In this document: positions 11,010-35,032 of the stretch, piece after piece
Layout of the letters: every line of letters begins with the position of its first letter
Position numbering within the stretch: position 1 is the first letter of the stretch
From: Novosphingobium sp. CF614
GTDB lineage: Bacteria; Pseudomonadota; Alphaproteobacteria; Sphingomonadales; Sphingomonadaceae
Assembly: GCF_900113255.1 (NCBI RefSeq)
Contig: NZ_FOOR01000010.1
Coordinates: 1-64,000, forward strand
Direction of reading: 5' to 3'
DNA length: 64,000 bases
The notes under the pieces: generated by a model
What the model saw: only the letters and a program-made list of their open reading frames with translations
What the model was told of the DNA's origin: nothing
The model's database searches: none
Translations under genes and position numbers: made by a program

Positions 11010-11013
11010 GGAA

Positions 11014-15852: not shown

Positions 15853-16646
15853 TCGACGACCAAGCCCCGGCGGACGCGACGGCACAGTGCCAACCCGACC
15901 GCGGCAATCACGATGGAGACGCCCAGGGGATACCAGACGTCATAATGTACCTCCAGCTTGGTGCCCCAGATGCCTCCTCTCATCATCTCCGTGCCATGCA
16001 CGAAGGGGGACCATAACACGTACTCGCGCAGGCTTGGCGTCAGCCAGGACACCATGTTGAAGGATCCCGAGAAGGGAATCATGACATAGGTGGTAACCGG
16101 AACAAACTTCTCCAGCACCTCCGACAGTTCGGAAAGCGGGGCGATCACCAGGCACAGCGAGAATGAGAAAATGCAGTAGATCAGCCAGCCCCCGATCATG
16201 AGTCCCGGATCCGCAGGGATCGGGAACGCGTCGAAGCCGATTAGCAGCAGTGCAATGAACACGAAGGCCATCATCGTGCCCAGCATCTCGATGAGGAAGC
16301 GGACCAGGACAAAGTCAAGCACCTGTATCTGCCGGTGGTACATCAGGCTGCTGTTGGCCTGGAAGATGGCCACGCTGCGCGAGACGACGTGGCGAAACAG
16401 TGTGATGGGAATATAGCCCGTCACGACGAAGGCGACGATGCCAACCCCGTGCTCCTCTGGCCCGCGCATGTAACGCCAGATGATCGCCACCAAGCCGGCG
16501 AAGAGCAGCGGCTCCACCATCATCCAGAGAAAGCCGATGTTCTCGCGCCCGAAACGGGTTATGAGCTCACGGATCATCAGTGCGTGGATGACGCGCCGTT
16601 GCGTCTGCAGCCCCTTTCGGAACCGTGAAAGTTTCGCGCGCGCCAT
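15849..16646 (-). CDS. kpsM: Capsule ABC transporter permease (KpsM/CtrC, ABC-2 type)
   Basis: The 265-aa integral membrane protein has about six hydrophobic segments (for example NIGFLWMMVEPLLFAGLVAI, GIVAFVVTGYIPITLF, MMAFVFIALLLIGF). It also has the N-terminal basic region with IRELITRFGRENIGFLW, which is typical of ABC-2 polysaccharide exporters. It forms the channel paired with KpsT, which it overlaps by 4 bases. The gene upstream is the periplasmic adaptor kpsE. Its size matches the family (about 260 aa). Confidence 0.93.
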   Translation of the reverse strand: MARAKLSRFRKGLQTQRRVIHALMIRELITRFGRENIGFLWMMVEPLLFAGLVAIIWRYMRGPEEHGVGIVAFVVTGYIPITLFRHVVSRSVAIFQANSSLMYHRQIQVLDFVLVRFLIEMLGTMMAFVFIALLLIGFDAFPIPADPGLMIGGWLIYCIFSFSLCLVIAPLSELSEVLEKFVPVTTYVMIPFSGSFNMVSWLTPSLREYVLWSPFVHGTEMMRGGIWGTKLEVHYDVWYPLGVSIVIAAVGLALCRRVRRGLVVE

Positions 16647-16650
16647 GATC

Positions 16651-17811
16651 TCAATCCTCAGGCGCGTGTTCGAGAATTCCGATGACGAGCATCCATCCGA
16701 TGAAATACAGACACAAGGCGGAGGCCGCGACCACGATCACCGACCACAAGCGTCTGGGCAGCAAGGGCTCGTCGGGCCGGTTCGGATCAACAATGCGCTC
16801 CAGGTAGAACTTTTGGTGCACGGCGTCGGCGCGCGCCTGAACCAACGCCGCGCTGGCGATGTTCAGGTTCTCCGTCGCAAACTCCTGCTCCACCGTCAAG
16901 GCTTCGTACCCAGAGAGCTTGGAGGCGATGCCATTGCGGTCGCCCACGATGCGACCCTCCTGCTCGGCGATCTCGCTGGACAAGGCCTTCACGCGTGCGC
17001 GCAAGGCGGGAATCGCCGGGTTGCGCGGGGTCATGCTCACCATCTGGTCCAGCTGGGCCTGCAGTGTGGCCCGTTCGCTGACCAGCGAATTGGAGATCTC
17101 CAAGGCACCGCCAGCCTGCTTCACCGGGTCGATGAGCTCGGACGCGTTGCGGTACTGCGCCAGCGCCACACGGGCATCGCGGACCCGCTTGCGCGCCTCG
17201 AACACCCTTACCTCGGCCTCCGAGATACCACGCGTCTGGGCGCGTGCATTGAGCCGATTCACCATGGCTTCGCTCAGATCGAGCAGCCGCGCGTTGATGC
17301 GATAGGCTGCTTCCGGACTGAACGCCTGAACCCGGATAATCACGGAACTGGTCTCGGTGTCGAGTTCGGCGCTGACCTTTTTGCCGTAGAACTTGTAAAG
17401 GCTCTCGAACGTGTTGTTCTGGAAGACGCCAGGGTAGCGCGAAAGAAAATCCGCCTCGGCCGGCGCAAAGGCCTGCGTCACGTCATAGCCCTTCCCTAGG
17501 TCGACCAGGGCATTGCGTGACCGCACGTAATCAAGCACTTCGTTGGCCTGATCCTGACCCGACGACAGGCTCTTGGTCTGAACCAGATTAGCCAATGACG
17601 ACAGCTGCGAACCTTTTTGATCCGGACTCTTCACCACGAATCTGGATTCCGAAATGTACACGTCGGAAGCGATCAGACCATAATATATGGCTGCCACGAC
17701 TGTAGGTGCCAATACAAAAATAAGGAACCACTTCCTCCTCATCACCCAATGCAGCCAGGAGGATCGACTTCTTATAGAATTTTCCGCCAGGATATCACTA
17801 TCAATCTTCAT
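16651..17811 (-). CDS. kpsE: Capsule export inner-membrane/periplasmic adaptor (KpsE/CtrB/BexC)
   Basis: The 386-aa protein has a first membrane helix (about 30-48, KWFLIFVLAPTVVAAIYYGL), a Wzz-like start to its periplasmic region (YISESRFVVKSPDQK), long helical heptads (about 180-315) and a second membrane helix near the C-terminus (VIVVAASALCLYFIGWMLVI). This is the KpsE/CtrB layout that bridges KpsMT to the outer membrane lipoprotein. It is the first gene of the minus-strand capsule unit, so the promoter should lie in 17812-17983, shared with the divergent dioxygenase gene. Confidence 0.9.
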   Translation of the reverse strand: MKIDSDILAENSIRSRSSWLHWVMRRKWFLIFVLAPTVVAAIYYGLIASDVYISESRFVVKSPDQKGSQLSSLANLVQTKSLSSGQDQANEVLDYVRSRNALVDLGKGYDVTQAFAPAEADFLSRYPGVFQNNTFESLYKFYGKKVSAELDTETSSVIIRVQAFSPEAAYRINARLLDLSEAMVNRLNARAQTRGISEAEVRVFEARKRVRDARVALAQYRNASELIDPVKQAGGALEISNSLVSERATLQAQLDQMVSMTPRNPAIPALRARVKALSSEIAEQEGRIVGDRNGIASKLSGYEALTVEQEFATENLNIASAALVQARADAVHQKFYLERIVDPNRPDEPLLPRRLWSVIVVAASALCLYFIGWMLVIGILEHAPED

Positions 17812-21797: not shown

Positions 21798-24104
21798 ATG
21801 TGGATTGAACGTAACGTGCAGCGCTTCATGGTCTTCGATGGCGACAGCATCGTCGCGGCGCTGAACAAGATCAGCGAGAACAAATCCGGCTTTGTCGTTG
21901 TGGTCAGCGGCAGCGGGCATGTCGTCGGCATGATGACCGATGGCGACATCCGGCGCTGGCTCATGACTGGCGCATCGATCGATCTCGCCGCCGAATGTGG
22001 TCGGGTAGCCAATCCCGGGTGCCTCACGGTATCGGTGGATACGCCGCATGCCGAAATCGGTGCGCTGTTCAGCGATCGTGTCCGTTCGATCCCGCTGGTA
22101 GATGGACAGGGACGGCTCGTTGCGGTGGCACTGCCGCGCAACCTTGAGTTGTCAATCAATGGCCGACCCGTCGGTAAGGGTCATCCAGCCTACATCATCG
22201 CCGAGATCGGCAACAACCATAATGGCGACGTAGCGCTGGCGAAGGAGCTCGTGCGCCTTGCTCATGATGCGGGAGCCGATTCCGCCAAGTTCCAGTTGCG
22301 CGACATGTCGTCGCTCTACGGCGGGGGCAAAAGTGACGATGCATCGCAGGATCTCGGTGCGCAGTACACCCTCGACCTACTCGCTCGCTTCAATCTCGAG
22401 CCTGAAGCTCTCTTCGAAGTCTTTGACTATGCCAAGGATCTCGGAGTGGAACCGCTGTGCACGCCGTGGGACCTTCCAAGCCTGGAAGCACTTGAGCGCT
22501 ACGGGCTCGCTGGTTACAAGGTCGCATCGGCAGACCTGACCAACCACGAATTCCTGCGGCAACTCGCCGCTACCGGCAAGCCGCTGATCCTTTCGACAGG
22601 CATGTCGGATGAGGCTGAGATCCGCCAAAGCGCCGAGTTGCTGGCGTCCGAAGGCGCACCGTTCTGTATGCTACACTGCAACTCGACCTATCCCACGCCC
22701 TACAAGGACGTGAACATGCGCTACATGTCGCGGCTCGCTGAAGTGGCGCAGTGCCCTGTCGGTTACTCCGGTCACGAGCGCGGGTGGTGGGTGCCGATCT
22801 CGGCCGTGGCGCAGGGCGCGGTGCTGGTTGAGAAGCACTTCACAGTCGATCGCGACATGGAAGGCAACGACCACAAGGTCTCGCTTCTGCCCGGTGAATT
22901 TGCGCAGATGGTTTCCGCGATTCGCAACGTCGAGGAGGCGATGGGCGTCAGCGGCGAACGCGTGATGACGCAGGGCGAGATGATGAACCGCGAGGTTCTC
23001 GCCAAGAGCCTTGTCGCAGTGGAGGACATCGCTGCCGGCACCGTCGTGACCTCTGCCATGGTGATGACCCAAAGCCCTGGGCAAGGCCTCCAACCCAACC
23101 AGATTGATAGCTTGGTCGGTCGCACCATCCGCCGCGACGTCAAGGCGCGCACGCCCTTCTTCCCCTCCGACCTCGCCGACGAGGTCATCGGTCCACGCAC
23201 CTTCCGCTTCGCGCGGCCCTGGGGCCTGCCAGTCCGCTGGCACGATTACAAGGACATGCTCGCCAAGACGAACATGACGCTGCTTGAGTACCACCTGTCT
23301 TACAAGGACATGGATGTGACGCTGGCTGACTGGTTTCCCGAGCCGCTCGCCATCGATTTTGTCGTCCATGCGCCCGAACTGTTCGCGGGCGATCACGTCC
23401 TCGATCTCGCCAGCCCGGACGAGGCCTATCGTAGTCATTCGATCGCCGAATTGCAGCGCGTGATCGATCTAACGCGCGATTTGCGCCAGTATCACAAGGG
23501 TTCGGTCACGCCGCCGCTAATCATCGTCAACATGGGCGGTTTCTCCAAGGCAGCGCCGCTGCCGCTCGACAAACGCCGCGAACTCTACGCGCGGATGGAG
23601 GATAGTCTCTCTCGCCTAGACCGCGAGGGCGCCGAGTTAATCCCGCAGACGATGCCGCCGTTCCCTTGGCACTTCGGCGGGCAGAGCTACCACAACCTGT
23701 TCATCGATGCCGACGAGATAGTGCAATTCTGCGATCGCAACGCAATGCGCATCTGCTTCGACATCTCGCACTCGCAACTAGCCTGCAACCACAATGGCTG
23801 GTCGATGAAGGGCTTCTGCGAGAAGGTCGGGCCTTATTCGGCGCACCTGCATGTGGTTGATGCCAAGGATGTGGATGGAGAAGGGCTGCAGATCGGCGAG
23901 GGCATGGTCGATTTCGACATGATCGCCCAAGTCCTCGACGAGAAGTGCCCGAAGGCCAGTTTCATCCCCGAGATCTGGCAGGGTCACAAGGACGGTGGCG
24001 CCGGTTTCTGGTTCGCGCTCGATAAGCTAGAAGAGTCGTTCGGTCGCAACGCCGCGAGCGGGCCGGCGGTTGGCACCGACATTCGCCTTGCCGCGAGGAC
24101 CTGA
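21798..24104 (+). CDS. CBS-NeuB-SAF-TIM barrel fusion: nonulosonic acid synthase
   Basis: This 768-aa protein fuses four domains. Residues 1-115 form a CBS pair (GMMTDGDIRRWL, RSIPLVDGQGRLVAV). Residues 125-385 are a NeuB-type synthase, which condenses phosphoenolpyruvate with a hexosamine-type sugar: AEIGNNHNG (135-143), KFQ (164-166), LSTGMS (265-270), CNSTYP (294-299) and EKHFTVDRDMEGNDHK (345-360). Residues 395-460 are SAF-like (AKSLVAVEDIAAGTVV, VGRTIRRDVKARTPF). Residues 480-745 form a xylose-isomerase-like barrel with candidate metal ligands (His524, Asp655, His658, His683, His685, Glu725). The last domain may make the sugar substrate, and the CBS pair may sense a nucleotide; both are inference. 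A neuA-like gene follows. Confidence 0.85.
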   Translation: MWIERNVQRFMVFDGDSIVAALNKISENKSGFVVVVSGSGHVVGMMTDGDIRRWLMTGASIDLAAECGRVANPGCLTVSVDTPHAEIGALFSDRVRSIPLVDGQGRLVAVALPRNLELSINGRPVGKGHPAYIIAEIGNNHNGDVALAKELVRLAHDAGADSAKFQLRDMSSLYGGGKSDDASQDLGAQYTLDLLARFNLEPEALFEVFDYAKDLGVEPLCTPWDLPSLEALERYGLAGYKVASADLTNHEFLRQLAATGKPLILSTGMSDEAEIRQSAELLASEGAPFCMLHCNSTYPTPYKDVNMRYMSRLAEVAQCPVGYSGHERGWWVPISAVAQGAVLVEKHFTVDRDMEGNDHKVSLLPGEFAQMVSAIRNVEEAMGVSGERVMTQGEMMNREVLAKSLVAVEDIAAGTVVTSAMVMTQSPGQGLQPNQIDSLVGRTIRRDVKARTPFFPSDLADEVIGPRTFRFARPWGLPVRWHDYKDMLAKTNMTLLEYHLSYKDMDVTLADWFPEPLAIDFVVHAPELFAGDHVLDLASPDEAYRSHSIAELQRVIDLTRDLRQYHKGSVTPPLIIVNMGGFSKAAPLPLDKRRELYARMEDSLSRLDREGAELIPQTMPPFPWHFGGQSYHNLFIDADEIVQFCDRNAMRICFDISHSQLACNHNGWSMKGFCEKVGPYSAHLHVVDAKDVDGEGLQIGEGMVDFDMIAQVLDEKCPKASFIPEIWQGHKDGGAGFWFALDKLEESFGRNAASGPAVGTDIRLAART

Positions 24105-24126
24105 GGCGGCGAGCGAGAGATAGAAT

Positions 24127-24882
24127 ATGACTGGCGTTTGCGCTCTAGTCCTCGCCCGCAGCGGTTCGAAGGGATTGCCGGGCAAGAATATCCGCTCGCT
24201 CGGTGGACACCCGCTGATCGCTTGGTCGATCGCGGCGGCCCGGGCCAGCGGCGCGGTCGACTGTGTGGTGTGCTCGACCGATTGCGAGCAGATCGCGGCG
24301 ATAGCCCGCAGCTATGGTGCCGAGACGCCCTTCTTGCGTCCTGCAGAACTGGCTTCGGACAACGCCACCGACCTCGACGTATTCGAACATGCGCTGAGTT
24401 GGCTGGACGATCATGGCAAATCGCCCGATCTCATCGTGCAACTGCGTCCGACGACGCCGTTCCGCGACCCTGCCTGGATCGACGCGGCGGTCGAGCGGAT
24501 GCGTGCCGATCTGGCGATTACCTGCGTGCGGTCCGTTACTTCGGCAGAACCGACGCCCTACAAGATGTGGTCGCTATCGCACGACGGCGCACGGCTTTCG
24601 CCGCTACTCACGGTGGAAGGCATGTCCGAGCCCTATAACATGCCGCGCCAGAAGCTGCCGCTGGCTTACTGGCACACAGGTCAACTCGACGTAATCCGCA
24701 GCGATACGATCCGCGCCGGATCGATGACGGGCACGCAGATCGCCCCGCTTCACGTGGATCGCGACCTGGCTATCGACATTGACACGCTGCGTGACTTCCA
24801 GCTTGCCGAGTTGGCCTTCGACGAGACGATGCCCGCCATCCTGCGCCATGTCATTGCAGAGCCGGTAGGGGAGGCCTCATGA
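24127..24882 (+). CDS. neuA: CMP-nonulosonate cytidylyltransferase (NeuA family)
   Basis: The 251-aa enzyme activates a sialic-like acid with CTP to give the CMP-sugar donor. It has the family P-loop-like motif ARSGSKGLPGKN (10-21), a CSTDCEQIA segment, QLRPTTPFR (105-113) and the late DRDLAIDIDT that binds metal and nucleotide. Its size matches the catalytic domain of NeuA/PseF/LegF-type enzymes. It starts 22 bases after the synthase fusion. Sequence alone cannot tell whether the product is CMP-Neu5Ac, pseudaminate, legionaminate or another nonulosonate. Confidence 0.9.
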   Translation: MTGVCALVLARSGSKGLPGKNIRSLGGHPLIAWSIAAARASGAVDCVVCSTDCEQIAAIARSYGAETPFLRPAELASDNATDLDVFEHALSWLDDHGKSPDLIVQLRPTTPFRDPAWIDAAVERMRADLAITCVRSVTSAEPTPYKMWSLSHDGARLSPLLTVEGMSEPYNMPRQKLPLAYWHTGQLDVIRSDTIRAGSMTGTQIAPLHVDRDLAIDIDTLRDFQLAELAFDETMPAILRHVIAEPVGEAS

Positions 24883-24919
24883 TGACAGGATGGATGTATA
24901 AGGTAGGCGGTAGACCCGT

Positions 24920-25897
24920 ATGGTAAGGATTGCCATCACCGGCAGTTCGGGCTTCATCGGCACGAACCTTGTCTCGCGTTACAAGCAGCAGGGGGCCGAC
25001 GTCCTCGGGCTGGATATCGTTCCGCCGCGCAATCCGCAGAACGGCGACGTCCATCGCCAGGTCGACCTGCTCGACCGCAAGGCGCTGGGCGATACGCTGG
25101 AGGCGTTTGACCCCGACTATCTTTTCCATCTTGGCGCTCGTACCGACTTGAGAGGACGCAGCGTGGGAGACTATGCTGCGAACGTGGAGGGGGTTGCCAA
25201 CCTCATGGCGGTGGTCGATCGGTGCGAGGCGTTGCGGCGGGTCGTCGTCGCGTCCTCACGCTTGGTCTGCGAAATCGGCTACCAGCCCAAAAGCGACACT
25301 GACTATCGCCCGACCACGCCATATGGCGAAAGCAAGATCGAGACCGAGAAGCTGGTCCGCGCCGCGCAGACGCGCAAGCCCTGGACAATCGTGCGCCCCA
25401 CTTCGATTTGGGGGCCCTGGTTCGCCACGCCCTACGACATGTTCTTCCGCCTCGTTGGCAAAGGGCTGTTCGTGCTGCCGCGCGGACGGGTGATCCACAA
25501 GTCCTTTGGTTTCGTCGGCAACACCGTGCATGAGCTCGATCGGATCGCCCACACGCAGCAGCCGATTGATGGCAACACCTTTTATCTATGTGATTATCCC
25601 CCGCTTGAAGTGGGCGAATGGACCGAGATGATCCGCGCGGCGATGGACGCGCCGAAGGTGCGCAGCGTGCCGTTCGGAGTGCTGAAGCTGGCGGCGGCGG
25701 CGGGTGACTTGATGGAGCGCCTGCACATGCCAGCTGCTCCGCTTACCAGCTTCCGGCTGAACAATCTTGTCGCCGAAATGACTTACGACTCTTCCACAGT
25801 GGCGGCGGTGGCGGGGGAACTGCCGTTCAGCCTGCGCGAGGGGGTCGAGCAGACTGCGGCCTGGATACGGGGCCACGAGCGGATGAGGCCCGCATAA
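24920..25897 (+). CDS. NAD-dependent epimerase/dehydratase
   Basis: The 325-aa extended short-chain dehydrogenase has GSSGFIG (8-14), FHLGARTDL and the catalytic YGESK (Tyr135, Lys139). It lies between the cytidylyltransferase and the pyruvyltransferase. A UDP-sugar 4-epimerase, dehydratase or reductase role in supplying the nonulosonate precursor or a companion sugar is plausible. The substrate cannot be assigned. The chosen start gives the usual family N-terminus (VRIAITGSSG). Confidence 0.85.
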   Translation: MVRIAITGSSGFIGTNLVSRYKQQGADVLGLDIVPPRNPQNGDVHRQVDLLDRKALGDTLEAFDPDYLFHLGARTDLRGRSVGDYAANVEGVANLMAVVDRCEALRRVVVASSRLVCEIGYQPKSDTDYRPTTPYGESKIETEKLVRAAQTRKPWTIVRPTSIWGPWFATPYDMFFRLVGKGLFVLPRGRVIHKSFGFVGNTVHELDRIAHTQQPIDGNTFYLCDYPPLEVGEWTEMIRAAMDAPKVRSVPFGVLKLAAAAGDLMERLHMPAAPLTSFRLNNLVAEMTYDSSTVAAVAGELPFSLREGVEQTAAWIRGHERMRPA

Positions 25898-25899
25898 GC

Positions 25900-25924
25900 C
25901 GCCCTCAAAGGGCGCTTAGCGCCC
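25900..25924. promoter_or_regulatory. Two overlapping, mutually exclusive hairpins
   Basis: CGCCCT (25900-25905) pairs with AGGGCG (25909-25914). Alternatively GGGCGC (25910-25915) pairs with GCGCCC (25919-25924). Both have three-base loops and share bases, so only one can form at a time. They lie in the 53-base gap between the epimerase and pyruvyltransferase genes. No T run follows. An RNA-processing or attenuation role is only a guess. Confidence 0.3.
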
Positions 25925-25950
25925 AGGCAAAAGTAAGGTACGGACGATAT

Positions 25951-27210
25951 ATGGCATCACGCGCGATTTCCCTCACGGCACCCAGCGGCAAGCTCAGGGA
26001 CCGGCCGCTAGCCCGTCTGCGCACGCAGCCGGACGACTTGCTGCCGGCGATGGCGCGTTTTGCCGGATACGCCTTTCGCCGCGGTTCCGATGAGCTTGCC
26101 AACCGGATGCGCGCCGGTTCGGATCATCAGTTCCTTCATTATTCCGTACACGATCCGCGCGGCAACGCTGGAGACACCGTGCTTTACCGCGCGGTGCGCG
26201 AGGTGTTCGACCATCAGCTGGGGCCGCGAAATTGGGTTCGCCGCCAGCTGCGCAAGGAAACCACCGCCGACGACGTCGAACGATACAACAAGCTCGCCAG
26301 CGCCCTGGTCATCGGGGGCGGCGGCCTGATGATGAGCGAGACCTCGAAGCCTACGGCCTCGGGCTGGCAATGGAACGTCACGCGCGAGAACGTCGAGCGG
26401 CTGACGATGCCGATCATCGTCTATGCCATCGGCTATAACCAGTTTCGCGGCAGCCGCAGCTTCGCGGGCGAGTTCGACCGCCACATCGAGACGGTCGTGG
26501 CGAAGAGCGCCTTCTTCGGCGTGCGCAATCGGGGCAGCCAGCAACGTTTGCTCGAACACTTGCCGGCCGAACTGCGCGAGAAGGTGGTGTTCCAACCCTG
26601 CCCGACGACTGTGCTGCGTCGCTTCCATGCTGGAATGCAGCCTGACCATCGCGCACCGTTTCGCAAGGAACTGGCCCTCAACTTGGCGTTCGACCGCGCG
26701 GACAAGCGTTATGGCGGCCAGGCGGAACAGCGACTTGGTAAGGTGGCCAACGCAATGCGCTGGGCGGTGCAGCAGGGCTGGAAGATCAAGCTGGCGGTCC
26801 ACGGCTTCGACGACGATCCGGCGGTGGCTTTCATGCGTAGCACGGACGTGCCGGTCGAGGTGGTACGGCTTAACCTGTTGGACTGGCGCGAGATCGTGGG
26901 GTTCTATGCGAACATGCCGCTCACGATCGGCATGCGCGGCCATGCACAGATGATTCCTTTCGGCGTGGGCAATGCCATCATCTCGCTCATCTCGCACGAC
27001 AAGCTGGGGTTCTTCCTGGAGGACATTGGCCATCCCGAGTGGGGCATCGAGATGGACGATGTCGCACTTGATGACCGGCTGATTGCCGCGATCAAGGCCC
27101 ATGACGACGATCCGGAGGTTGCGCACGCGAACGTTGATATTGCACAGCAGGGTTTATGGGATACGACGGTGCGAAATCTTGATGAAATTCGGGTGAAAAC
27201 GTCAATATAG
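25951..27210 (+). CDS. Polysaccharide pyruvyltransferase family protein
   Basis: Enzymes of this family transfer pyruvate from phosphoenolpyruvate to a sugar as a ketal, which adds a negative charge to the chain. The 419-aa sequence has the family features GNAGDTVLYRA (71-81), ALVIGGGGLMM (118-128) and MPLTIGMRGHAQMIPFGVGN (about 320-345) with the conserved Arg-Gly-His. It is preceded by about 55 low-complexity basic residues. It follows the epimerase by 53 bases and precedes the polymerase gene, so the pyruvate probably decorates the same repeat that contains the nonulosonate. Confidence 0.86.
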   Translation: MASRAISLTAPSGKLRDRPLARLRTQPDDLLPAMARFAGYAFRRGSDELANRMRAGSDHQFLHYSVHDPRGNAGDTVLYRAVREVFDHQLGPRNWVRRQLRKETTADDVERYNKLASALVIGGGGLMMSETSKPTASGWQWNVTRENVERLTMPIIVYAIGYNQFRGSRSFAGEFDRHIETVVAKSAFFGVRNRGSQQRLLEHLPAELREKVVFQPCPTTVLRRFHAGMQPDHRAPFRKELALNLAFDRADKRYGGQAEQRLGKVANAMRWAVQQGWKIKLAVHGFDDDPAVAFMRSTDVPVEVVRLNLLDWREIVGFYANMPLTIGMRGHAQMIPFGVGNAIISLISHDKLGFFLEDIGHPEWGIEMDDVALDDRLIAAIKAHDDDPEVAHANVDIAQQGLWDTTVRNLDEIRVKTSI

Positions 27211-27268
27211 CGTGCAAAAATAGCGACGCAGATGGACGGCTAGCTTAGCCTAGCGCGGAGATAAGAGA

Positions 27269-28561
27269 ATGCGCGCAATTCATATATTGGTTATTAGCGG
27301 CATATTTTTAGGCTTGTATCTAAATTTAGGCTTTTGGATCGGTGGGATATATGTTGGAGGTTTGATCCTCACGATTTTTGGTACAATAGCTTTTGTCCTG
27401 CATGTCGGAACGGGAAAGGATATTCCCGCAGCGCTGACGATGATTGGCGCTGTGTGTCTATGGGGCTTGACTATACCATTCAGCCCAGCTCCTGATAAAT
27501 TTGCGTCTGAAGAAATGAAGTCATTAGTACTCCTCGTTTCAAGCGTCGTTTGTTCTTTGGGCGTATTTTTTGAAATTAGGAGAGTTAAAAGAGTAAATCT
27601 TTCCATAATGATGACAATTATTACCACTATTTTGATTACTTTTTCTTACGCCGAGATTTATATCTCACCCTTTCGCGAACTGTCTGATAGTGTTCGTAAT
27701 TGGCTCTACGCTGGAAGATACTCGTACTCGGCAGATGATCGAGACCTGCTGATTTCTGGCGTCATCCGCCCTAAACTTTTCACGCAAGAGCCATCCCATC
27801 TTGCCAAGGCAATCAGTATAGCTTTGGCTGGCTCAGTGATTTTAAGTCGTAATAGGTTTAGATACGTCTTCGGATTCATTGGATTTATATTGGCATTTCT
27901 AGCCATTCGCAGCCCAACTATGTTGTTGTCACCTGCTGTTGTAATAGCGAGTACGGCGGTGAGGAGGATTAAATTCGGAGAGCGCCAGAAAATCCGATCT
28001 ACGTCTCTTTTCATACTTGTCGTAGGTGCGGTATGTATGTTGTCATTTTTGCCGCAAATAGCGAGCTTATTACCGTTCGAGCGCGCGCAAATGATCGCAA
28101 ACAACGAAGACGTGAGTACTGTTACCAGAAGCACCGGACCGATGCTCGTTGCTTACGAAACTGCAAAAAAATATCCGATTGCAGGGGCAGGAATTGGCGG
28201 CCGTGAGCTAGTTTCAGATATTCAGTTTGATGTTTATTCAAACTTTAAAAGTTATGATCTAGAACGTCTTAAAGACGGCGCTGGTTATATTGGCTGGGGG
28301 AATGCGTTTTTTGAGATGCTCACCTATTGCGGGATCATTATGGGAATTATTATTCTGCCAGCGATGCTAGTTGGGATGAGGATTTTTAATCCATCCATAT
28401 CGTTCTTGTTTCTGATATTTTTTCTTGTTTTCAATTTTGACGGCGGCTTTCCTACCTCTCGGCCTTGGAGCTACTTTTCCATTCTTCTAGCAATGCTGGC
28501 CGTTTCGAGATCGACATCTTCCGTCGTTGTGCCGCGCGCACCTGCACGAGCTAAGACTTGA
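27269..28561 (+). CDS. Wzy-like O-antigen/EPS polymerase
   Basis: This 430-aa multi-spanning membrane protein has about ten to twelve hydrophobic stretches and one longer periplasmic loop (about 285-345, with ...VTRSTGPMLVAYETAKKYPIAGAGIGG), the layout of Wzy/WaaL-type enzymes. It would join repeat units at the periplasmic face. A good ribosome binding site (GGAGA, 7 bases upstream) precedes the ATG. Codon use is far more AT-rich than in the genes before it, a usual trait of wzy genes and a sign of separate acquisition. Primary sequence does not separate polymerase from ligase. Confidence 0.68.
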   Translation: MRAIHILVISGIFLGLYLNLGFWIGGIYVGGLILTIFGTIAFVLHVGTGKDIPAALTMIGAVCLWGLTIPFSPAPDKFASEEMKSLVLLVSSVVCSLGVFFEIRRVKRVNLSIMMTIITTILITFSYAEIYISPFRELSDSVRNWLYAGRYSYSADDRDLLISGVIRPKLFTQEPSHLAKAISIALAGSVILSRNRFRYVFGFIGFILAFLAIRSPTMLLSPAVVIASTAVRRIKFGERQKIRSTSLFILVVGAVCMLSFLPQIASLLPFERAQMIANNEDVSTVTRSTGPMLVAYETAKKYPIAGAGIGGRELVSDIQFDVYSNFKSYDLERLKDGAGYIGWGNAFFEMLTYCGIIMGIIILPAMLVGMRIFNPSISFLFLIFFLVFNFDGGFPTSRPWSYFSILLAMLAVSRSTSSVVVPRAPARAKT

Positions 28562-28607
28562 TCTCACCCTCAAAAAGGAGGCTATCCGCCCCTCATTGAG
28601 GTGAGAT
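28561..28607. terminator. Inverted repeat between convergent genes
   Basis: ATCTCACCCTCAA (28561-28573) and TTGAGGTGAGAT (28596-28607) pair over 12 positions with one bulged base, around a 22-nt loop. It sits in the 52-base gap between the polymerase gene (plus) and the beta-helix gene (minus). It could therefore stop transcription from both sides. Confidence 0.5.
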
Positions 28608-28613
28608 GTTTGA

Positions 28614-29870
28614 TCACTCCAAGGTAATTCTATTTCCTTGTGGCATGGGATAATCAGACAAGTTCCCGCTTTTCAATTGTCGGTTGATTGCTCCAAGTGG
28701 ACTGATACCTCTAATCTTGAACGTGCTGCGTTGTGGCCTGTTCCCGGATGGAAGTAAAATCGCCGAATGCTGGGTGTTTTCCGAGGACGCAGAAAGAAGC
28801 ATAGAAATTGCTAGATTACGCGAGCTAATATCTCGCGGTAAAATAGCTAAATCGAGCGCGGCAACCCCTGGGTTGAGGTCAATCAAACTTCGTGGGTTGG
28901 CGCACTCCAGTATTATGTCAAATCGTGAGTCTCGAAAAGTTCCGCGGAGCGGGGTGACTCCATTTGTTTTATTTCGTATCGTTATGCCAGTAGCAATCAC
29001 CCCGGCTGCCGTTCTTCCGTGGATCACCCCAAAATTTTTGGGATCACTTGTTGCACAATCTTGAAATACAATGTCGCTCAGGTGGGCATCCAAGCTTATT
29101 CGTTTAGAGCTGGGACTCGCAAGGATATACAAGCCAACGAGATGGCAATGTTGACAAGTAACATTTTTAACGTGAATTCCAGTCGTCGAACCGCCGTCAG
29201 CGATTTTGCCTTCAATACTGAAACCGATGTCGCAATCTCGAATTATTATATTCGATATACTAACGTTTTGAGGCCCGTACTGAAGGGTAAATCCTTTGCC
29301 TCCCTTCCGTCCAATATCATTTCGGCCTGTTCCGCTACTTCTGGCGCCTACTAGAGTAAGATTACTCACTGTAATATCGCTCGAATGGCCCCCAAAACTC
29401 TGTAAGCCGGATATCCCAAAGCAATTATCGTTGCCTTGCCTGTTCGAATCAATTGTTCCACCAGACCATGAGATGTTATTTTTAGATCGTATAAGGACTA
29501 CGCCACCGATCGCCGATGCTCCAAAAAAACGGATTGTCCCGTTGCAGATAATATCACTATCAGATCCAACCAAGACGAGATCGGAAACGTTATAGATGCC
29601 TGAGGGGATTAGCCCAAGGCCCTTCGATCCAGTACTCCGGCCCATTGCCGAGACGGCATTGAAGAATTTTCGCAATGAATGCGTGTCGTCGCCAGTGCCG
29701 TCGCCACAGGCCCCATAGTGCTGAGGAATTATTCTTGAGATAGCCTGCGCTGGAACACTTTTGGAGGCGGATAGCGCAGCGAGGCCAGAACCAACGCCAA
29801 GTAGAACTTGTCTTCTCGATCGTTTCAGCAAATTGACCTCCTTGGCCGATCGGCAGATCCTGTTCAACAT
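28614..29870 (-). CDS. Tat-exported pectate-lyase-like beta-helix protein
   Basis: The 418-aa product has a twin-arginine-type leader (KRSRRQVLLGVGSGLAALSAS, about 16-36), then YGACGDGTGDDTHSLRKF, the characteristic opening of the pectate-lyase-3 / tail-spike-like beta-helix family. Rungs such as IRSKNNISWSGGTIDS, VSNLTLVGA and VSISNIIIRDCDIGF follow. It likely binds or cleaves a polysaccharide in the periplasm or outside the cell; no catalytic residues can be named. It is AT-rich like the polymerase gene and lies antisense to the main plus-strand module. Start alternatives lie within the first 15 residues. Confidence 0.7.
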   Translation of the reverse strand: MLNRICRSAKEVNLLKRSRRQVLLGVGSGLAALSASKSVPAQAISRIIPQHYGACGDGTGDDTHSLRKFFNAVSAMGRSTGSKGLGLIPSGIYNVSDLVLVGSDSDIICNGTIRFFGASAIGGVVLIRSKNNISWSGGTIDSNRQGNDNCFGISGLQSFGGHSSDITVSNLTLVGARSSGTGRNDIGRKGGKGFTLQYGPQNVSISNIIIRDCDIGFSIEGKIADGGSTTGIHVKNVTCQHCHLVGLYILASPSSKRISLDAHLSDIVFQDCATSDPKNFGVIHGRTAAGVIATGITIRNKTNGVTPLRGTFRDSRFDIILECANPRSLIDLNPGVAALDLAILPRDISSRNLAISMLLSASSENTQHSAILLPSGNRPQRSTFKIRGISPLGAINRQLKSGNLSDYPMPQGNRITLE

Positions 29871-30201
29871 TTTATCATACGGCTACTTTCGTCAAACAGA
29901 TCTTTCAGATTATTGCAAGCGGGCCGCGACGCTGCGGTGCAGCAAATCGATAGTGGACACTTCAAATGGAAAGGGCTAGTGCGAAATGCCCTGATTAAAT
30001 GAGAGATTGATATGGCGAATGTGTCATTTACCGAAGACCGGGAGGCTGGTGAGTGGAGGACGGGCTATATCATCTTCTCCGGGTGCCCCGGTCCCGCCGA
30101 GGCGTCGCGGCCCGCGAGTGTCTGCTGCGGCAAGTTCGAGTATGATAGATTTTCGGACGATTGAATAAGAGACAGGCTTAGATTAAACTAGGGTCAATGA
30201 A
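29871..30201. other. 331-base gap; possible 50-aa open frame
   Basis: No established gene is present. A 50-codon frame at 30012-30164 (plus) has GAGAG six bases before its ATG and includes a GC-rich patch out of keeping with the AT-rich flanks. The peptide contains three Cys and has no recognisable family. The gap should also hold the promoter of the acyltransferase gene and that of the divergent beta-helix gene. Confidence 0.35.
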
Positions 30202-31353
30202 ATGACTGCCGAAATCTCGGATAAATTTGCAGTCAAGCGCATTTCAGCTCGCGAAAGTGTTGCATTGAATGTGATGCGCGGCGGGGCGGCGCTTTTAGTT
30301 TTATTCGAACACTGCAAGAATCGTGTTTTCGGGGAAAACAGTGATTTTGTGGAATTCGGGCAACTAAGTGTCATCCCGCGCCTCATTTTCAACCTCGGCC
30401 ATGAGGCGGTAATCGTGTTCTTTGTCCTGTCGGGATATTTAGTAGGCCGAAAGCTATTACAAACTCAAAATGCTCAAGAAGCAACTAGGTATTTTATTGA
30501 TCGCATTTCACGCATTTATCTTGTTGCAATTCCTGCGGTAATTTTCTCGGCATTAGTCGCAGCCGCACTGATGGCGACGCTCGGAATAAGTTTTTCACAA
30601 CCAGATAGGCCTGAAAATTGTAATCCTGATCTTATTGACATCGTGGGCAACCTTGTACTTCTGAACAAGACGGTGTTGCCCACAATTTGTTCGAACAGCC
30701 CCTTCTGGTCGATCCAGAATGAAATGACCTATTACGTATTCTTCGGTGTTGTCTTTATGACGCTCTACGTTTGGAAGAGTGTTCGGGCTAAGATAGCTGG
30801 TTTTGGCATTGCTGCACTGATTGTTGGACTTATGGCATTCGAGCCGCTCAACCCTAACAACACTATCCTTTATTCGGGGTTTTGGCTTGCAGGAACTCTC
30901 GCGAGCATGGAAAGTAGGAAGTCTTATCTTGGATTGGTCTGCCTCGGCCTAACTTATGCGGCACTCCTAGCCTTCGGAGTGCGACTGAATGGACAGTTTG
31001 TGATCGATGTAGTGATAATGATTGTGATAGTTGCGGCAGTACTGCTCGCTGGGAAGGTCAAGTTGCCGAGTCAGATATCGCTGCCTGCAAAAAGACTTTC
31101 GGACATCTCGTTTTCCCTATATTTGTTCCACATGCCGGTAGTGAATGCGCTTGTTTCAATTTTTATCTACTTCGGAATTGAGCCTGGTCACTTTTCAATA
31201 AAAGTTTTTTCTGGGTGGTTTATTATATTTTGCTACGCCACGGCGGCGATAATTTTTTCGATTCTTATGTATGTTTGCTTCGAATCTCGAACTAACGATG
31301 TTCGCAAGTGGCTTCTGGGCCATTTAGGAAAGGTTCGTCTCGCCTATGCCTAA
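30202..31353 (+). CDS. Acyltransferase 3 (OafA-like) membrane protein
   Basis: The 383-aa membrane protein belongs to acyltransferase family 3, which moves acetyl or related groups to sugars at the membrane. Near residue 33 it has the typical LLVLFEHCKNR (the usual xxxH motif of the family), then EAVIVFFVLSGYLVGRKLL and a helix-rich body with about ten membrane segments ending in a cationic tail. Its codon use is AT-rich. It resembles the acyltransferase at 56501-57613 more than the one at 41335-42540. Confidence 0.85.
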   Translation: MTAEISDKFAVKRISARESVALNVMRGGAALLVLFEHCKNRVFGENSDFVEFGQLSVIPRLIFNLGHEAVIVFFVLSGYLVGRKLLQTQNAQEATRYFIDRISRIYLVAIPAVIFSALVAAALMATLGISFSQPDRPENCNPDLIDIVGNLVLLNKTVLPTICSNSPFWSIQNEMTYYVFFGVVFMTLYVWKSVRAKIAGFGIAALIVGLMAFEPLNPNNTILYSGFWLAGTLASMESRKSYLGLVCLGLTYAALLAFGVRLNGQFVIDVVIMIVIVAAVLLAGKVKLPSQISLPAKRLSDISFSLYLFHMPVVNALVSIFIYFGIEPGHFSIKVFSGWFIIFCYATAAIIFSILMYVCFESRTNDVRKWLLGHLGKVRLAYA

Positions 31354-31693
31354 GTCAAACATGGGTATTAAATTAATTTAAGCTTGGAAAACGGTCGGTG
31401 TGAACATGGCACAAGATCTACTTTGACTGGGACGGCAGGAGCGAAGCTTGAACTTTACCGATCATCAGACGGCAGGATTGGCGAAGGACGATTATATCAT
31501 CGTGCCCGCTTTTCTCGGGTCCGACTTAAAAAACAAGGGAGATAAGCTTTCCATTTTCTTCACTTACGCCAAGCCGAATGCGCAGACCGACGAGCATATA
31601 GGTGTCATCGTCGATGAACATCGGGCCTGAACGGCACGGATAGCGCGAAACCGCAGCAGTGTAATGTCGCGCACGGCCTTTCCCAGGAGTTCC
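31354..31693. other. 340-base gap before the flippase gene
   Basis: No supported gene. One TTG-started frame (31448-31630, 60 codons) has no ribosome binding site and matches no family known to me. The base composition switches here from AT-rich back to GC-rich, so an old junction may lie in this gap. Confidence 0.4.
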
Positions 31694-33157
31694 ATGAAGC
31701 GATCCTTCGTCGCCAATACCGGCATCTACGTGATCGGCAACACGCTGCAGCGTGCGGTCGCCTACGTCGTCCTGCCGATTTACGCGTGGCTGATGCCGCA
31801 GGACCAGTATGGGCGCTATGCGGTGTTCGTATCGGCCATGGCGGTGGTCAATCTCGTGCTCGACATGGGGCTCAGCAAGGCCGCCTCGCGCCACTACATC
31901 GACTACGAGGAAAGCCCGGGGCGGCTGCGCTATTTCCTGGAGCAACTGGTCTTCCAGCGCCTGGTGCTGACGCTTGGCGTCGGCGTGGCGATCCTGCTGG
32001 CGACCATTCCTTTGTGGCCCGTCCTGACCGCGGGCGCGCTCGACTGGTGGCCCTATGTGCTGCTGCTGCTGTTGATCGCGGCGTCCGATTCCTTCCTGCT
32101 GATCGTGGTGCTGCTGCACCGCATGCGCAACGACGCGGTTGGCTTTACCCTTCTCAAGCTGGGGCAGGCCGGTGGGCAATGCCTGTTCGGTATCGCCATC
32201 GTGGCGCTGTTCCATGGCGGCGCGATCGGTGCCGCCTGCGGCGTGGCGCTGGGCAGCCTGCTCTCCTTCATGGCGGCAGCCGCGGTCTATCGGTTTCGCC
32301 TGCTGCCCCGCGAGCCGGCCGAGCGTGCCGTGGCGCCGGGCGTGCTATGGCGCGAGAACTTGGGATATGGCGCACCGCTGTTGTTCTACGACCTCGCCTT
32401 CTGGTTGCGCACACAGGCGGATCCGTTCATCCTCGTACGCTTCGTCAGTCTGGCGACGGTGGGGACGTATCAGCTGGGCTATGTCAGCGGAATTCTGATG
32501 GGGCTGATCGTAGTTTCGATCGACCTCGCTTACGCGCCGATGTACTATCGCTGGAAGCGATCCAACCCGATGGCGGACCCGATGCACTACAACGCCACGG
32601 CGGTGCAGGCGCTGGGTCTGGGCGCAGTGGCGGTTTGGGCAGTGATGGCTGCGCGGCCGGCGCTGCTGCTGGTGCTGGGCCCCACGCGCGCGCCGGCGGG
32701 GGACGTTGCGCCGTTCCTGATCCTGGCGCACTACATTTATGGGCACTACCTGTCCGACACGCGCAAGCTGTTTTTTCTCAAGCGCGTGCGGCCCATTACG
32801 CTCTATTCGATCATGGTGAGCGCTGCGTGCATCGCTACGACCTTCGCGCTGGTGCCAGTCTACGGCTACATGGCGGCCGCGTGGATGAATGCGGTGACGT
32901 TTACGTTGCTCTGGCTCGGCGGAACCGCAATCGCACGTTACATGGCGCCGCCGCTGACCATACCGCTGATGATGCAGTTGACGGTGAGCGCCATCGTGCT
33001 GGCGCTAGTCCTTCTCGAACCCACCGTGCCCGCGCTAGGCTGGGAGGGCCTAGGCATTCGCGTGCTTGCAGCCGCCGGGATTTCCGCGGTTCTGGCTGCC
33101 TTTGCAGTGCGGTATGCGCGCCAGCTTGTTACAATAACGAAGCCGGCGACGGCGTGA
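31694..33157 (+). CDS. Wzx-type polysaccharide flippase
   Basis: The 487-aa protein has about twelve to fourteen membrane segments. Its N-terminus (KRSFVANTGIYVIGNTLQRAVAYVVLPIYAWLM) is typical of MATE/PST-family flippases, which turn lipid-linked repeat units to the periplasmic side. The ATG at 31694 follows AGGAG by 4 bases and is preferred over the in-frame ATG at 31664. It is followed after 65 bases by the polysialyltransferase-like gene, and it most likely serves the nonulosonate-containing unit. Confidence 0.88.
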   Translation: MKRSFVANTGIYVIGNTLQRAVAYVVLPIYAWLMPQDQYGRYAVFVSAMAVVNLVLDMGLSKAASRHYIDYEESPGRLRYFLEQLVFQRLVLTLGVGVAILLATIPLWPVLTAGALDWWPYVLLLLLIAASDSFLLIVVLLHRMRNDAVGFTLLKLGQAGGQCLFGIAIVALFHGGAIGAACGVALGSLLSFMAAAAVYRFRLLPREPAERAVAPGVLWRENLGYGAPLLFYDLAFWLRTQADPFILVRFVSLATVGTYQLGYVSGILMGLIVVSIDLAYAPMYYRWKRSNPMADPMHYNATAVQALGLGAVAVWAVMAARPALLLVLGPTRAPAGDVAPFLILAHYIYGHYLSDTRKLFFLKRVRPITLYSIMVSAACIATTFALVPVYGYMAAAWMNAVTFTLLWLGGTAIARYMAPPLTIPLMMQLTVSAIVLALVLLEPTVPALGWEGLGIRVLAAAGISAVLAAFAVRYARQLVTITKPATA

Positions 33158-33222
33158 TCGCCGCCCGCTACGGAAGAGGTGTTCTCGCAGGTATGACGAT
33201 GGGACCGACATGAGGCGTGGGC

Positions 33223-34239
33223 ATGATTGATACGATCCTGTGCGTGAACAACGAAATTTCCTCGGTGATGGCGCAGGGCGCCCTCAAGGAAAAAGGCATC
33301 GGCCTCGACCGGGTGGCAGTGATTGTCATGCGCAAGCTTGACGCACCCTGGCTCGACCAATGCACAATGCGCGTCGACTATGGGGTCAAGCCTTCGTTCC
33401 GAATATCCGGACAACTGCGCCTGATCGGTTACTTCCGCCGCGCCTCGCGGATGATCCGGCAGCTTCTGGCAACCGGGAACATTCGTCACGTCCTCCTGGT
33501 CAATAACGACAATGTTCTGAACAACCACTTTTTCTCAGTGGCAAGCGCGCATCCGGAGATGGAAATTTCGGTCCTTGCCGAAGGGATCATGAACTTCCAG
33601 GACATCCAGATGAAGAACCGGGACTGGTGGCGCACAGCTGTTAAGCCGGTTTTTGCGCGTATCTTGGGATTGTCCTGGCGCGAACCGACGCGCCACGTGT
33701 CCGGTTCACTCGAGCCTGAGACTCGTCATGTTTATACGTTCGCTGCGCACGGCGTTGTTGCTCCGCCGGAGAAAATCCGGCTGATCAAATTCCCAGAGGC
33801 GGACCGCGAAGTAGTTCCCGATCCCGGGGCGGCGGTCATTGCGATGACAGGGCTACATCTATGGATGACAGAGGCGAACTACGCCGAGTTTGCGCAGCGG
33901 TTCATCTCCTGGAAGAAGACACTACCATTCACCAAATACTACGTGAAGCGACACCCGCGTGCAACCGACGGTCCGCTCTTCCACGAACTAGCTGATTGCG
34001 AAGTAATCGGCGAGGGACAGTCGATCGAGGATATGGCGGGGAGCATGCCGGGTTCAACAGTCATTGGATTTTGCTGCACCGGCCTTGTGACTCTGTCACT
34101 CATGCGGCCTGACATTCGTTGTCTAGATTTTGGTTCTGATTTCTACTGCGATGCCGCCTATTTCGGAGATCGCTCTGTGGAGCGCTTGCTCGAGGGAAGT
34201 GGTGTCGAGTTGATTTCATCTGCCCCTTTCGCGAATTGA
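33223..34239 (+). CDS. Putative CMP-nonulosonate (polysialyl)transferase-like protein
   Basis: The 338-aa protein has short signatures seen in bacterial sialyl- and polysialyltransferases: an acidic-Gly element (VLAEGIMNF, about 122-130), an HP motif (KYYVKRHPRATDG, about 240-252) and a Ser/Thr element near the end (VIGFCCTGLVTLSL). The overall layout suggests a GT-B fold. With a NeuB fusion and NeuA upstream, a CMP-nonulosonate transferase is expected in this module and this is the best candidate. The assignment is tentative because I rely on motif spacing only. The ATG at 33223 has GAGG upstream; a GTG at 33217 is also in frame. Confidence 0.55.
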   Translation: MIDTILCVNNEISSVMAQGALKEKGIGLDRVAVIVMRKLDAPWLDQCTMRVDYGVKPSFRISGQLRLIGYFRRASRMIRQLLATGNIRHVLLVNNDNVLNNHFFSVASAHPEMEISVLAEGIMNFQDIQMKNRDWWRTAVKPVFARILGLSWREPTRHVSGSLEPETRHVYTFAAHGVVAPPEKIRLIKFPEADREVVPDPGAAVIAMTGLHLWMTEANYAEFAQRFISWKKTLPFTKYYVKRHPRATDGPLFHELADCEVIGEGQSIEDMAGSMPGSTVIGFCCTGLVTLSLMRPDIRCLDFGSDFYCDAAYFGDRSVERLLEGSGVELISSAPFAN

Positions 34240-34264
34240 CGTTGTGGTGTCAATCGGCGTCCAA

Positions 34265-35032
34265 AAGGGACCCAGGCTATGGGTTTACCTTCGCGATAAC
34301 CGACGATGGAGCCACTTGGACAAGCCGGCAGCGTTGTTTCGCTACAGTCCCGATCGGAAGGGTGAGCGACCGCGCGAGCATCTCAAGACCTTTGCGGGTT
34401 TCCTGCAGGCCGATGCCTATGCCGGTTTCGAGCGCCTCTACGCGAGTGACCGTAAACCGGCGCCGATCACGCCTGTTGCCTGTTGGGCCCATGCAAGGCG
34501 CAAGCTGAACGATATCTACAAGGCAGATCCAAACTCGGCGGCACTCGAAGGGCTGCAGATGATCGGAGAGCTTTACGACGTCGAACGGCAGATCGTGCGC
34601 GAGCCTGCGGATTTCCGCCGCAAGGCTCGTAAGCTCTCGAAGCTCAAGGCGCTGGATTTTTTCGCTTGGGCTGATGATGTGCTGTCCAGGGCATCGGCCC
34701 GGTCACCGTTGGCGGAAGCGTTGCGCTATGCCGTGAAGCTGAAGCCGCAACTGCTCGCCTACACCGACGACGGCAGGCTGGAGATCGACAACAATCCGGC
34801 GGAGAATGCCCTTAGGGGCATAGCCGTAGGGCGCAAGAACTGGATGTTTGCCGGCGCCGACTGCGGCGGCGAACGCGCCGCTGCCATGTATTCACTGCTG
34901 GAAACGGCCAAGCTCAATGGCATCAACCCGCAGGAGTGGCTGGCCGATGTGCTCGACCGCATCGGCAAGGGGCATCCGATCAACCGGATCGACGAGCTGC
35001 TGCCTTGGAACTGGGCCACCCCGCAGGCGTGA
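34265..35032 (+). pseudogene. IS66 transposase (TnpC), 5'-truncated
   Basis: About 255 residues of the C-terminal half of an IS66-family transposase remain, beginning around GPRLWVYLRDNRRW. They continue through PVACWAHARRKL and LEIDNNPAENALRGIAVGRKN, and end with the accessory domain (LNGINPQEWLADVLDRI). Full-length TnpC is about 500 aa, so the N-terminal half is missing and tnpA and tnpB are absent. The cut lies just 25 bases after the end of the previous gene, so a deletion or rearrangement joined the two. Confidence 0.9.

Follow-up and report, generated by a model that had tools for sequence, protein, structure and literature searches.

A nonulosonate synthase fusion linked to a ketal-pyruvyltransferase in a putatively acquired Wzx/Wzy-type islet of Novosphingobium

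Which glycan would be made by a block of genes in which a sialic-acid-type synthase stands close to a pyruvyltransferase? This question is raised by nine genes at 21798-34239 of the window, the whole stretch of 64,000 nucleotides analyzed here from Novosphingobium sp. CF614 (contig NZ_FOOR01000010.1, positions 1 to 64,000 of the forward strand). A sequence-only reading had described eight of these genes as a self-contained module, almost all on the plus strand, for a polymer carrying nonulosonate and pyruvate. All nine genes are open frames, the eight listed earlier lying where they had been placed, and eight of the nine are on the plus strand and one on the minus strand. The identities proposed earlier hold for six genes, each with a fitting Pfam family over cut-off, whereas the Wzy-like protein and the putative cytidine monophosphate (CMP)-nonulosonate transferase have no Pfam or NCBIfam family.

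With slightly better than even confidence in the reading as a whole, we propose that the block is a horizontally acquired, incomplete islet of Wzx/Wzy type for a surface polysaccharide whose nonulosonate is probably non-N-acylated, similar to 2-keto-3-deoxynononic acid (Kdn), and in which pyruvate is attached as a ketal, the nonulosonate perhaps being the attachment site. The earlier interpretation would then be right in kind, but not in calling the module self-contained, a term dropped because no initiating transferase is recognized in the block and no precursor family is over cut-off in the genome. The core of the islet is a recurrent cassette of synthase fusion, CMP-synthetase, and ketal-pyruvyltransferase.

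Architecture and active site of the synthase fusion

The first gene (21798..24104, plus strand) encodes a nonulosonate synthase fusion of 768 residues, in which the Pfam families CBS, NeuB, SAF, and AP_endonuc_2 are over cut-off. Its frame opens at a TTG codon at 21726, and the homologues align from the ATG at 21798. A CBS region (residues ~1-110) is followed by a NeuB barrel with its SAF domain (~111-460; PF03102, 255.2 bits; PF08666, 35.6 bits) and by a ketose-3-epimerase-like barrel (~472-756), which by its Pfam family is of the xylose-isomerase-like type. An AlphaFold model was obtained with an alignment of 49 family members, with a mean predicted local distance difference test score (pLDDT) of 88.0. 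Comparison of this model by VIA-align places the middle part on NeuB (Protein Data Bank (PDB) codes: 2wqp/1xuu; Z 37, root-mean-square deviation (rmsd) 3.9, 339 residues), with PseI also matched, and residues 472-756 on the D-tagatose 3-epimerase-like 3wqo_A (Z 24.4, rmsd 3.0, 250 residues) and the L-ketose 3-epimerase from Thermotoga 5h1w_A (Z 23.9, rmsd 2.8, 246 residues); the list consisted mostly of NeuB-barrel matches, and other parts of the chain were barely probed by it. Also, Asp655, His685, and Glu725 of the C-terminal barrel are invariant in the family.

The idea that the fusion is peculiar to this genome was dropped, since a scan of the genome collection found 146 relatives. The best 80 of these were kept as loci and come from Alpha-, Beta-, and Gammaproteobacteria, Cyanobacteria, Bacillota, Bacteroidota, Nitrospirales, Verrucomicrobia, and others. 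The 48 relatives aligned with the window protein are 50-68% identical to it. The family was grouped by connected components; Louvain clustering gave no such cluster. In the titles and abstract openings of the literature matches, which were covered in part, no description of this four-domain architecture is found.

Ten residues of the Neisseria meningitidis NeuB (E25, K53, Q55, S132, Y186, S213, H215, E234, H236, and D247) are identical in 49/49 aligned fusions, among them K53, S132, H236, and D247, whose roles in NeuB are known. At the site of Arg314 in the SAF domain (N. meningitidis numbering), the same alignment has Ser in 48 proteins and Cys in one, the window residue being Ser426. The change extends to all 88 fusion-length proteins fetched (85 without three probable duplicate contigs), with 87 Ser and a single Cys. 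Stand-alone NeuBs have Arg (nine) or Lys (one) in the 10 proteins alignable at this site, an eleventh being unalignable there. Further differences from the N. meningitidis enzyme are Asn74, replaced by Gln (45 proteins) or Glu (4), Asn184, replaced by Ser in all, Glu134, replaced by Asp in all 49, and Phe288, which is not conserved. In the passages of PMC6795526 at hand (here, as below, cited papers are represented by passages from them), Arg314 is the sole residue of its domain contributing directly to the NeuB active site, and two interactions between Arg314 and N-acetylmannosamine place the N-acetyl group. The PDB entries 4ipi and 4ipj, both among the VIA-align matches, correspond to the Ala and Lys mutants of this Arg (PMC6795526).

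Precursor genes and the nature of the sugar

Models of precursor enzymes with curated cut-offs were applied to 23 fusion-bearing genomes, namely the window's own and 22 carriers selected non-randomly among the 80 loci, most of them named isolates. NeuC is over cut-off in three of the genomes, PseB in three, and PseG in four. At least one of these families is present in 6/23 carriers, and none in the remaining 17, to which the window's genome belongs. Moreover, none of these 17 genomes has a LegB or LegC match over cut-off. In the genome of the window, all five families are below cut-off genome-wide (the best PseB match reaches 38.9 bits, against a cut-off of 407.75), and a genome scan finds a single NeuB, the one in the islet.

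Because Arg is changed to Ser and the genome yields no over-cut-off match to the five precursor families, the aldose substrate is most likely not N-acylated, and a Kdn-like product would be the simplest option. Precursor genes would be unneeded if the precursor were a pool sugar.

Several observations weigh against this reading. Ser at position 314 is an altered site that does not tell which sugar binds, and the Asn74, Asn184, and Phe288 sites differ too. In the C-terminal barrel, Gln617 is found, by eye, where ketose 3-epimerases, with their Glu-Asp-His-Glu set of metal and catalytic residues, have a catalytic Glu. Precursor genes over cut-off do occur in the six carriers mentioned, and a precursor route of divergent sequence could escape the family models; for example, PseB-like proteins under cut-off are present in some carriers (up to 330 bits, cut-off 407.75), one of the 17 genomes with no family over cut-off having one of 326 bits, and LegC-like aminotransferases just below cut-off are present in two of the 17 (415 and 399 bits, cut-off 420). 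In the window's genome itself, an epimerase matches NeuC at 85.8 bits, under the cut-off of 235.9. Some fusion loci hold a second, stand-alone NeuB. Finally, the enzymes for N-acetylneuraminic acid (Neu5Ac) are stated to serve for Kdn too (PMC8053191, in the passages at hand), so that no dedicated synthase is necessarily needed for a Kdn-like product.

From such observations, an ordinary sialic, legionaminic, or pseudaminic acid locus could be proposed, whose precursor genes would have diverged beyond the reach of the models, with Ser tolerated at position 314 and pyruvate on a neutral hexose. The fusion is consistent with this in its best NCBIfam equivalog, NeuB_NnaB, although the 305.5 bits reached are under the cut-off of 399.65 (PseI, 229.6 bits, is likewise under its cut-off of 340.25). 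The six carriers with NeuC, PseB, or PseG and the under-cut-off PseB- and LegC-like proteins point the same way, as does the review PMC6801904, where pyruvate is described most often at 2,3-, 4,6-, or 3,4-positions. Nonetheless, in 17 carriers, the window's genome among them, NeuC, PseB, PseG, LegB, and LegC are all below cut-off, and the Arg is replaced in 88/88 fusions. We consider an ordinary locus fairly unlikely, although it is the most probable of the alternatives considered here.

Six loci (L023, L034, L057, L069, L078, and L096) carry the fusion plus a second NeuB of the ordinary Arg or Lys type. Some of these dual-NeuB loci also have a second CMP-synthetase and a Gfo/Idh/MocA oxidoreductase, and possibly two nonulosonates per glycan would be made there.

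CMP activation and the CBS region

The second gene (24127..24882, plus strand) encodes a probable CMP-nonulosonate (ulosonate) cytidylyltransferase of 251 residues (PF02348, 2.7e-23). By tblastn, a relative of this CMP-synthetase lies at 300 bp or less from the fusion in 47/80 loci and at 5 kb or less in 65/80; in the other 15 none is found within 5 kb, several having a contig end near.

Another product could be considered at this point, a different CMP-activated 3-deoxy-ulosonate such as a C8 sugar similar to 3-deoxy-D-manno-octulosonic acid (Kdo), made from an unphosphorylated pentose instead of a nonulosonate. The CBS region of the fusion is closest to the CBS domains of KpsF/arabinose-5-phosphate isomerases (NCBIfam; PDB code: 4o9k), and KdsB-type models match the synthetase weakly. 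Against this, the synthase is much nearer to NeuB and PseI than to Kdo-8-phosphate synthase, and the nearest model to the synthetase is PseF (147.1 bits, below the cut-off of 205.7). A C8 product seems quite improbable, and we retain the nonulosonate. The CBS pair of 4o9k is reported to bind CMP-Kdo.

The pyruvyltransferase and its linkage to nonulosonate genes

The fourth gene (25951..27210, plus strand) encodes a ketal-pyruvyltransferase-family protein of 419 residues (PF04230, 46.8 bits, cut-off 25.3), which is far below the cut-off of the CsaB equivalog (28.2 versus 213.1 bits). Its residues R192, R329, H331, and K351 are identical in 11/11 aligned members and were equated by motif, without alignment to CsaB, with R148, R306, H308, and K328 of the CsaB phosphoenolpyruvate (PEP) site (PMC10435577). 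The invariance of these four PEP-site-like residues favors genuine pyruvyl transfer. Single-sequence and profile searches of the PDB with this protein matched nothing relevant, Pvg1p included.

The sequence-only reading had associated nonulosonate with pyruvate, and this association gains from the gene linkage, which recurs in other phyla. By tblastn, a relative of the pyruvyltransferase is near the fusion in 6/80 fusion-anchored loci (Xanthobacter, two cyanobacteria, Methylovorus, Ruegeria, and Hydrogenophaga), a low count that weighs against the proposed reading. Because the 80 loci had been picked for the fusion, a reverse test anchored on the pyruvyltransferase was run. Two samples, 396 genomes from the order to which the window belongs (searched at E 1e-20) and 385 from the corresponding class (at E 1e-25), contain the pyruvyltransferase only in the window's genome; Xanthobacter and Ruegeria, which are in neither sample, show it elsewhere in the class. 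In the cyanobacterial order of Crocosphaera, the subfamily is present in 7/310 genomes, two of the seven contigs being already known from the fusion scan. Six of the seven loci are assessable, one being at a contig end. In 6/6 of these, the CMP-synthetase is immediately downstream of the pyruvyltransferase, and in 5/6 an intact fusion follows the CMP-synthetase. Thus, in the 310-genome sample the pyruvyltransferase implies nonulosonate genes, whereas most fusions exist without it. The same synthase-pyruvyltransferase pairing in unrelated bacteria points to the nonulosonate as a possible site of the pyruvate. The literature titles and abstract openings, with partial coverage of the matches, contain no description of a nonulosonate pyruvyltransferase.

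A correlation of pairwise identities between pyruvyltransferase and fusion (r = 0.82, 36 pairs, 9 loci) was not counted as evidence, because cyanobacteria dominate it.

The linkage to the CMP-synthetase in cyanobacterial loci would also be accounted for if the PF04230 protein were itself the CMP-nonulosonate transferase and not a pyruvyltransferase, and some fusion loci without a PF04230 protein hold other candidate glycosyltransferases (DUF6716). This is however opposed by the CsaB-like PEP-site residues, identical in 11/11 members and equated by motif, and by the separate sialyltransferase-like gene of the window. We regard such a role as improbable and keep pyruvyl transfer as the proposed function.

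Two further arrangements were seen around this gene. A methyltransferase gene comes after the pyruvyltransferase in Methylovorus, Hydrogenophaga, and Ruegeria, the two genes lying side by side but unfused in L031, L041, and L060, and in cyanobacteria pyruvyltransferase-methyltransferase fusions occur (L010, tested with Pfam; L110 and L112, by similarity). Also, the sixth assessable cyanobacterial locus (L114:11733-12005) has pyruvyltransferase and CMP-synthetase frames with the synthase fusion reduced to a 90-residue remnant.

The putative CMP-nonulosonate transferase

The last gene of the islet (33217..34239, plus strand) encodes a protein of 340 residues, putatively a CMP-nonulosonate transferase of the GT-B, sialyltransferase-like type, with A-E-G and H-P motifs. 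It has no Pfam or NCBIfam family and no PDB sequence match. A homologue of 347 residues, encoded in Sphingobium arseniciresistens at a distance of 5.4 kb from the fusion there, is 37% identical and aligns end to end; A-E-G (121-123) and H-P (246-247), the second within VKxHP, are invariant in both members found. D/E-D/E-G and HP are the motifs of bacterial sialyltransferases in the passages of PMC2169525. In a Foldseek search with a low-confidence model (pLDDT 53.2, template modeling score 0.27), the best match is the polysialyltransferase 5wcn_A (E 4.4e-08); the Neisseria lipooligosaccharide sialyltransferase (PDB codes: 2yk4/2yk7) is also at the top, and uridine diphosphate N-acetylglucosamine 2-epimerases and other GT-B proteins are close behind. 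Against the assignment, the first motif is A-E-G and not D/E-D/E-G, with Ala at the first acidic position, and the model is poor. Together, the HP and E-G motifs and the fold matches support the label proposed earlier, and CMP-nonulosonate transferase would be the best guess for this protein.

In the marine Synechococcus loci L033, L046, L047, and L065, tandem DUF6716-type putative glycosyltransferases lie between the CMP-synthetase and the fusion; these proteins are candidate transferases for the same sugar.

Locus layout, remaining genes, and probable foreign origin

The first five plus-strand genes (synthase fusion, CMP-synthetase, an epimerase/dehydratase, pyruvyltransferase, and the Wzy-like gene) are separated by spacers of 22-58 bp. 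The third of these (24920..25897) encodes an extended short-chain dehydrogenase/reductase, an NAD-dependent epimerase/dehydratase of 325 residues (PF01370, 6.1e-26), with only weak relatives near other fusions. The fifth (27269..28561) encodes a polytopic membrane protein of 430 residues with 10 hydrophobic segments in a simple hydropathy count, probably the Wzy polymerase, which matches nothing in NCBIfam and, even at E values up to 0.8, no family in Pfam. A minus-strand gene (28614..29870), convergent with the Wzy-like gene, then separates these five genes from the last three. Its product is a pectate-lyase-like protein of 418 residues (PF12708, 4.8e-05, 23.7 bits, under the cut-off of 27.0) with a twin-arginine-type N-terminus (KRSRRQVLL), possibly a lyase, hydrolase, or depolymerase of the same polymer. 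The three-gene run comprises a membrane O-acyltransferase (acyltransferase 3; 30202..31353, plus strand, 383 residues; PF01757, 1.3e-22), a Wzx-like flippase (31664..33157, plus strand, 497 residues; PF01943, 4.3e-18), and the putative transferase, with intergenic gaps of 310 bp and then 59 bp. Of the Wzx/Wzy pair, Wzx is thus assigned by Pfam and Wzy by hydropathy only. Promoter-like sites are at chance (8 observed, 7.8 expected), and terminator-like sites are fewer than by chance (6 observed, 14.2 expected).

Among the nine islet genes, no initiating transferase is recognized with Pfam and NCBIfam, and the protein encoded at 33.2 kb is the one candidate glycosyltransferase. For these two reasons, the islet must rely on flanking or distant genes. 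Further polysaccharide genes are frequent in the flanks, all on the minus strand where listed, including those for an ABC exporter, Wzz/Wzc-type proteins, Poly_export/SLBB, an outer-membrane BBP2_2 barrel, a second Wzx-type protein, several glycosyltransferases, and a guanosine diphosphate-mannose dehydratase. At 15205-16646 (minus strand), an ABC-2 type exporter pair lies beside a Wzz-like protein (16651-17811), so that a second, ABC-dependent export system adjoins the Wzx/Wzy islet. Two very large glycosyltransferases are encoded at 8676-14301 (minus strand), one of 793 residues with Glycos_transf_2 and Glycos_transf_1 domains in a single chain and the other a frame of 1095 residues with a Glycos_transf_1-type domain at its C-terminus. 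PADLOC has no family for three proteins of the window.

At the 3' edge of the islet, an IS66 transposase fragment (34244..35032, plus strand; PF03050) begins 4 bp past the end of the transferase gene, abutting its stop codon. The fragment covers positions 170-387 of the 387 of NF033517, the first 169 model positions lacking. The GC content falls to 43.7% in the Wzy-like gene, 47.7% in the lyase-like gene, and 45.3% in the acyltransferase gene, compared with 61.0% for the whole window. Foreign origin of the islet, as part of the reading held at slightly better than even confidence, is suggested by this GC dip together with the IS66 remnant. It is also suggested by the rarity of the fusion in the order (full length in 7/396 genomes), where the putative transferase and the pyruvyltransferase are in the window's genome alone, and by Xanthobacter (68%) being ahead of Sphingobium (65%) among the fusion matches listed. 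A decaying, partly broken locus that makes no polymer, as could be read from the minus-strand gene together with the IS66 fragment, is improbable, since nine of nine frames are open and the transferase aligns full length with its 347-residue homologue, although the IS66 remnant 4 bp past this gene, the absence of the latter from every other of the 396 genomes of the order, and the decay seen in one cyanobacterial locus (L114, 90-residue fusion remnant) are in its favor.

Proposed pathway and implications

Taking the islet as functional and probably acquired, a pathway can be proposed in which every chemical step is inferred, along the general lines of nonulosonate and Wzx/Wzy pathways. The C-terminal barrel, with its D-tagatose/ketose 3-epimerase fold, would ready the sugar, and the NeuB-SAF part would join the aldose with PEP to give a 3-deoxy-ulosonate, while the CBS region may detect the CMP-sugar as feedback. 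Then, the synthetase would produce the CMP-sugar, and the 33.2-kb glycosyltransferase would move the nonulosonate onto a lipid-linked repeat started by glycosyltransferases from outside the islet. The pyruvyltransferase would put a PEP-derived pyruvate ketal on the repeat, possibly on the nonulosonate itself, and O-acylation would be followed by flipping through Wzx and polymerization by Wzy.

A broader proposal, which we advance only tentatively, is that the cassette represents a second route to bacterial nonulosonates. In this route, one polypeptide would prepare a non-N-acylated aldose, condense it with PEP, and perhaps sense the CMP-sugar, and a linked enzyme would put the pyruvate ketal on the nonulosonate, which would supply the type of gene that 7,9-pyruvylated Kdn still lacks. 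If true, it would explain how nonulosonates can be made by environmental bacteria that have no genes for sialic-acid precursors, and it would give a predicted substrate class for a four-domain enzyme family of many phyla. It would also provide a candidate gene for a known modification, pyruvate on nonulosonic acids, that has no assigned gene in the literature passages at hand. Moreover, the annotation "sialic acid synthase" within the fusion family should not be taken as evidence for Neu5Ac.

Comparison with known systems

With NeuB/SiaC from N. meningitidis and PseI from C. jejuni, the fusion has a common fold over 339 and 333 residues, respectively, at 29-30% identity, and keeps the ten active-site residues. 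However, it adds the N-terminal CBS region and the C-terminal ketose-epimerase-like barrel, has Ser/Cys in place of Arg314, Gln/Glu in place of Asn74, and Ser in place of Asn184, and falls below both equivalog cut-offs. A deaminated nonulosonate, as proposed for the islet, is also the product of the Kdn-9-phosphate synthase/CMP-Kdn synthetase route of Prymnesium and Bacteroides, which starts at mannose-6-phosphate via phosphorylated intermediates (PMC6200933). In contrast, no phosphatase family was matched among the islet genes by Pfam or NCBIfam.

The putative transferase has in common with the GT38, GT52, and GT80 sialyltransferases (PMC2169525) the HP motif, the E-G of the first motif, and the best fold matches, the latter from a low-confidence model, but it differs in having no Pfam family or PDB sequence match and Ala as the first acidic residue.

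Regarding pyruvylation, CsaB, WcfO, and Pvg1p are the characterized ketal-pyruvyltransferases named in a 2019 review, in whose passages at hand no characterized nonulosonate pyruvyltransferase is among them (PMC6801904). The window protein belongs with them to PF04230 and is alike in its PEP-site residues at the motif level, whereas it is tied to CMP-nonulosonate genes and far below the CsaB cut-off. The closest chemical likeness is to two actinomycete polymers described in the same review, the Kdn teichulosonic acid of Promicromonospora citrea, with 7,9-pyruvylated Kdn, and the capsule of Rhodococcus equi serotype 4, with 7,9-pyruvylated rhodaminic acid, an amino nonulosonate (PMC6801904). 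Both polymers have a nonulosonate with a 7,9-pyruvate ketal, and the proposed islet product may resemble them, a likeness at the level of chemistry for which no gene homology is claimed. The mix of nonulosonate and pyruvate is then already known chemically, and the interest of the islet rests not on uniqueness but on the recurrent linkage of its genes.

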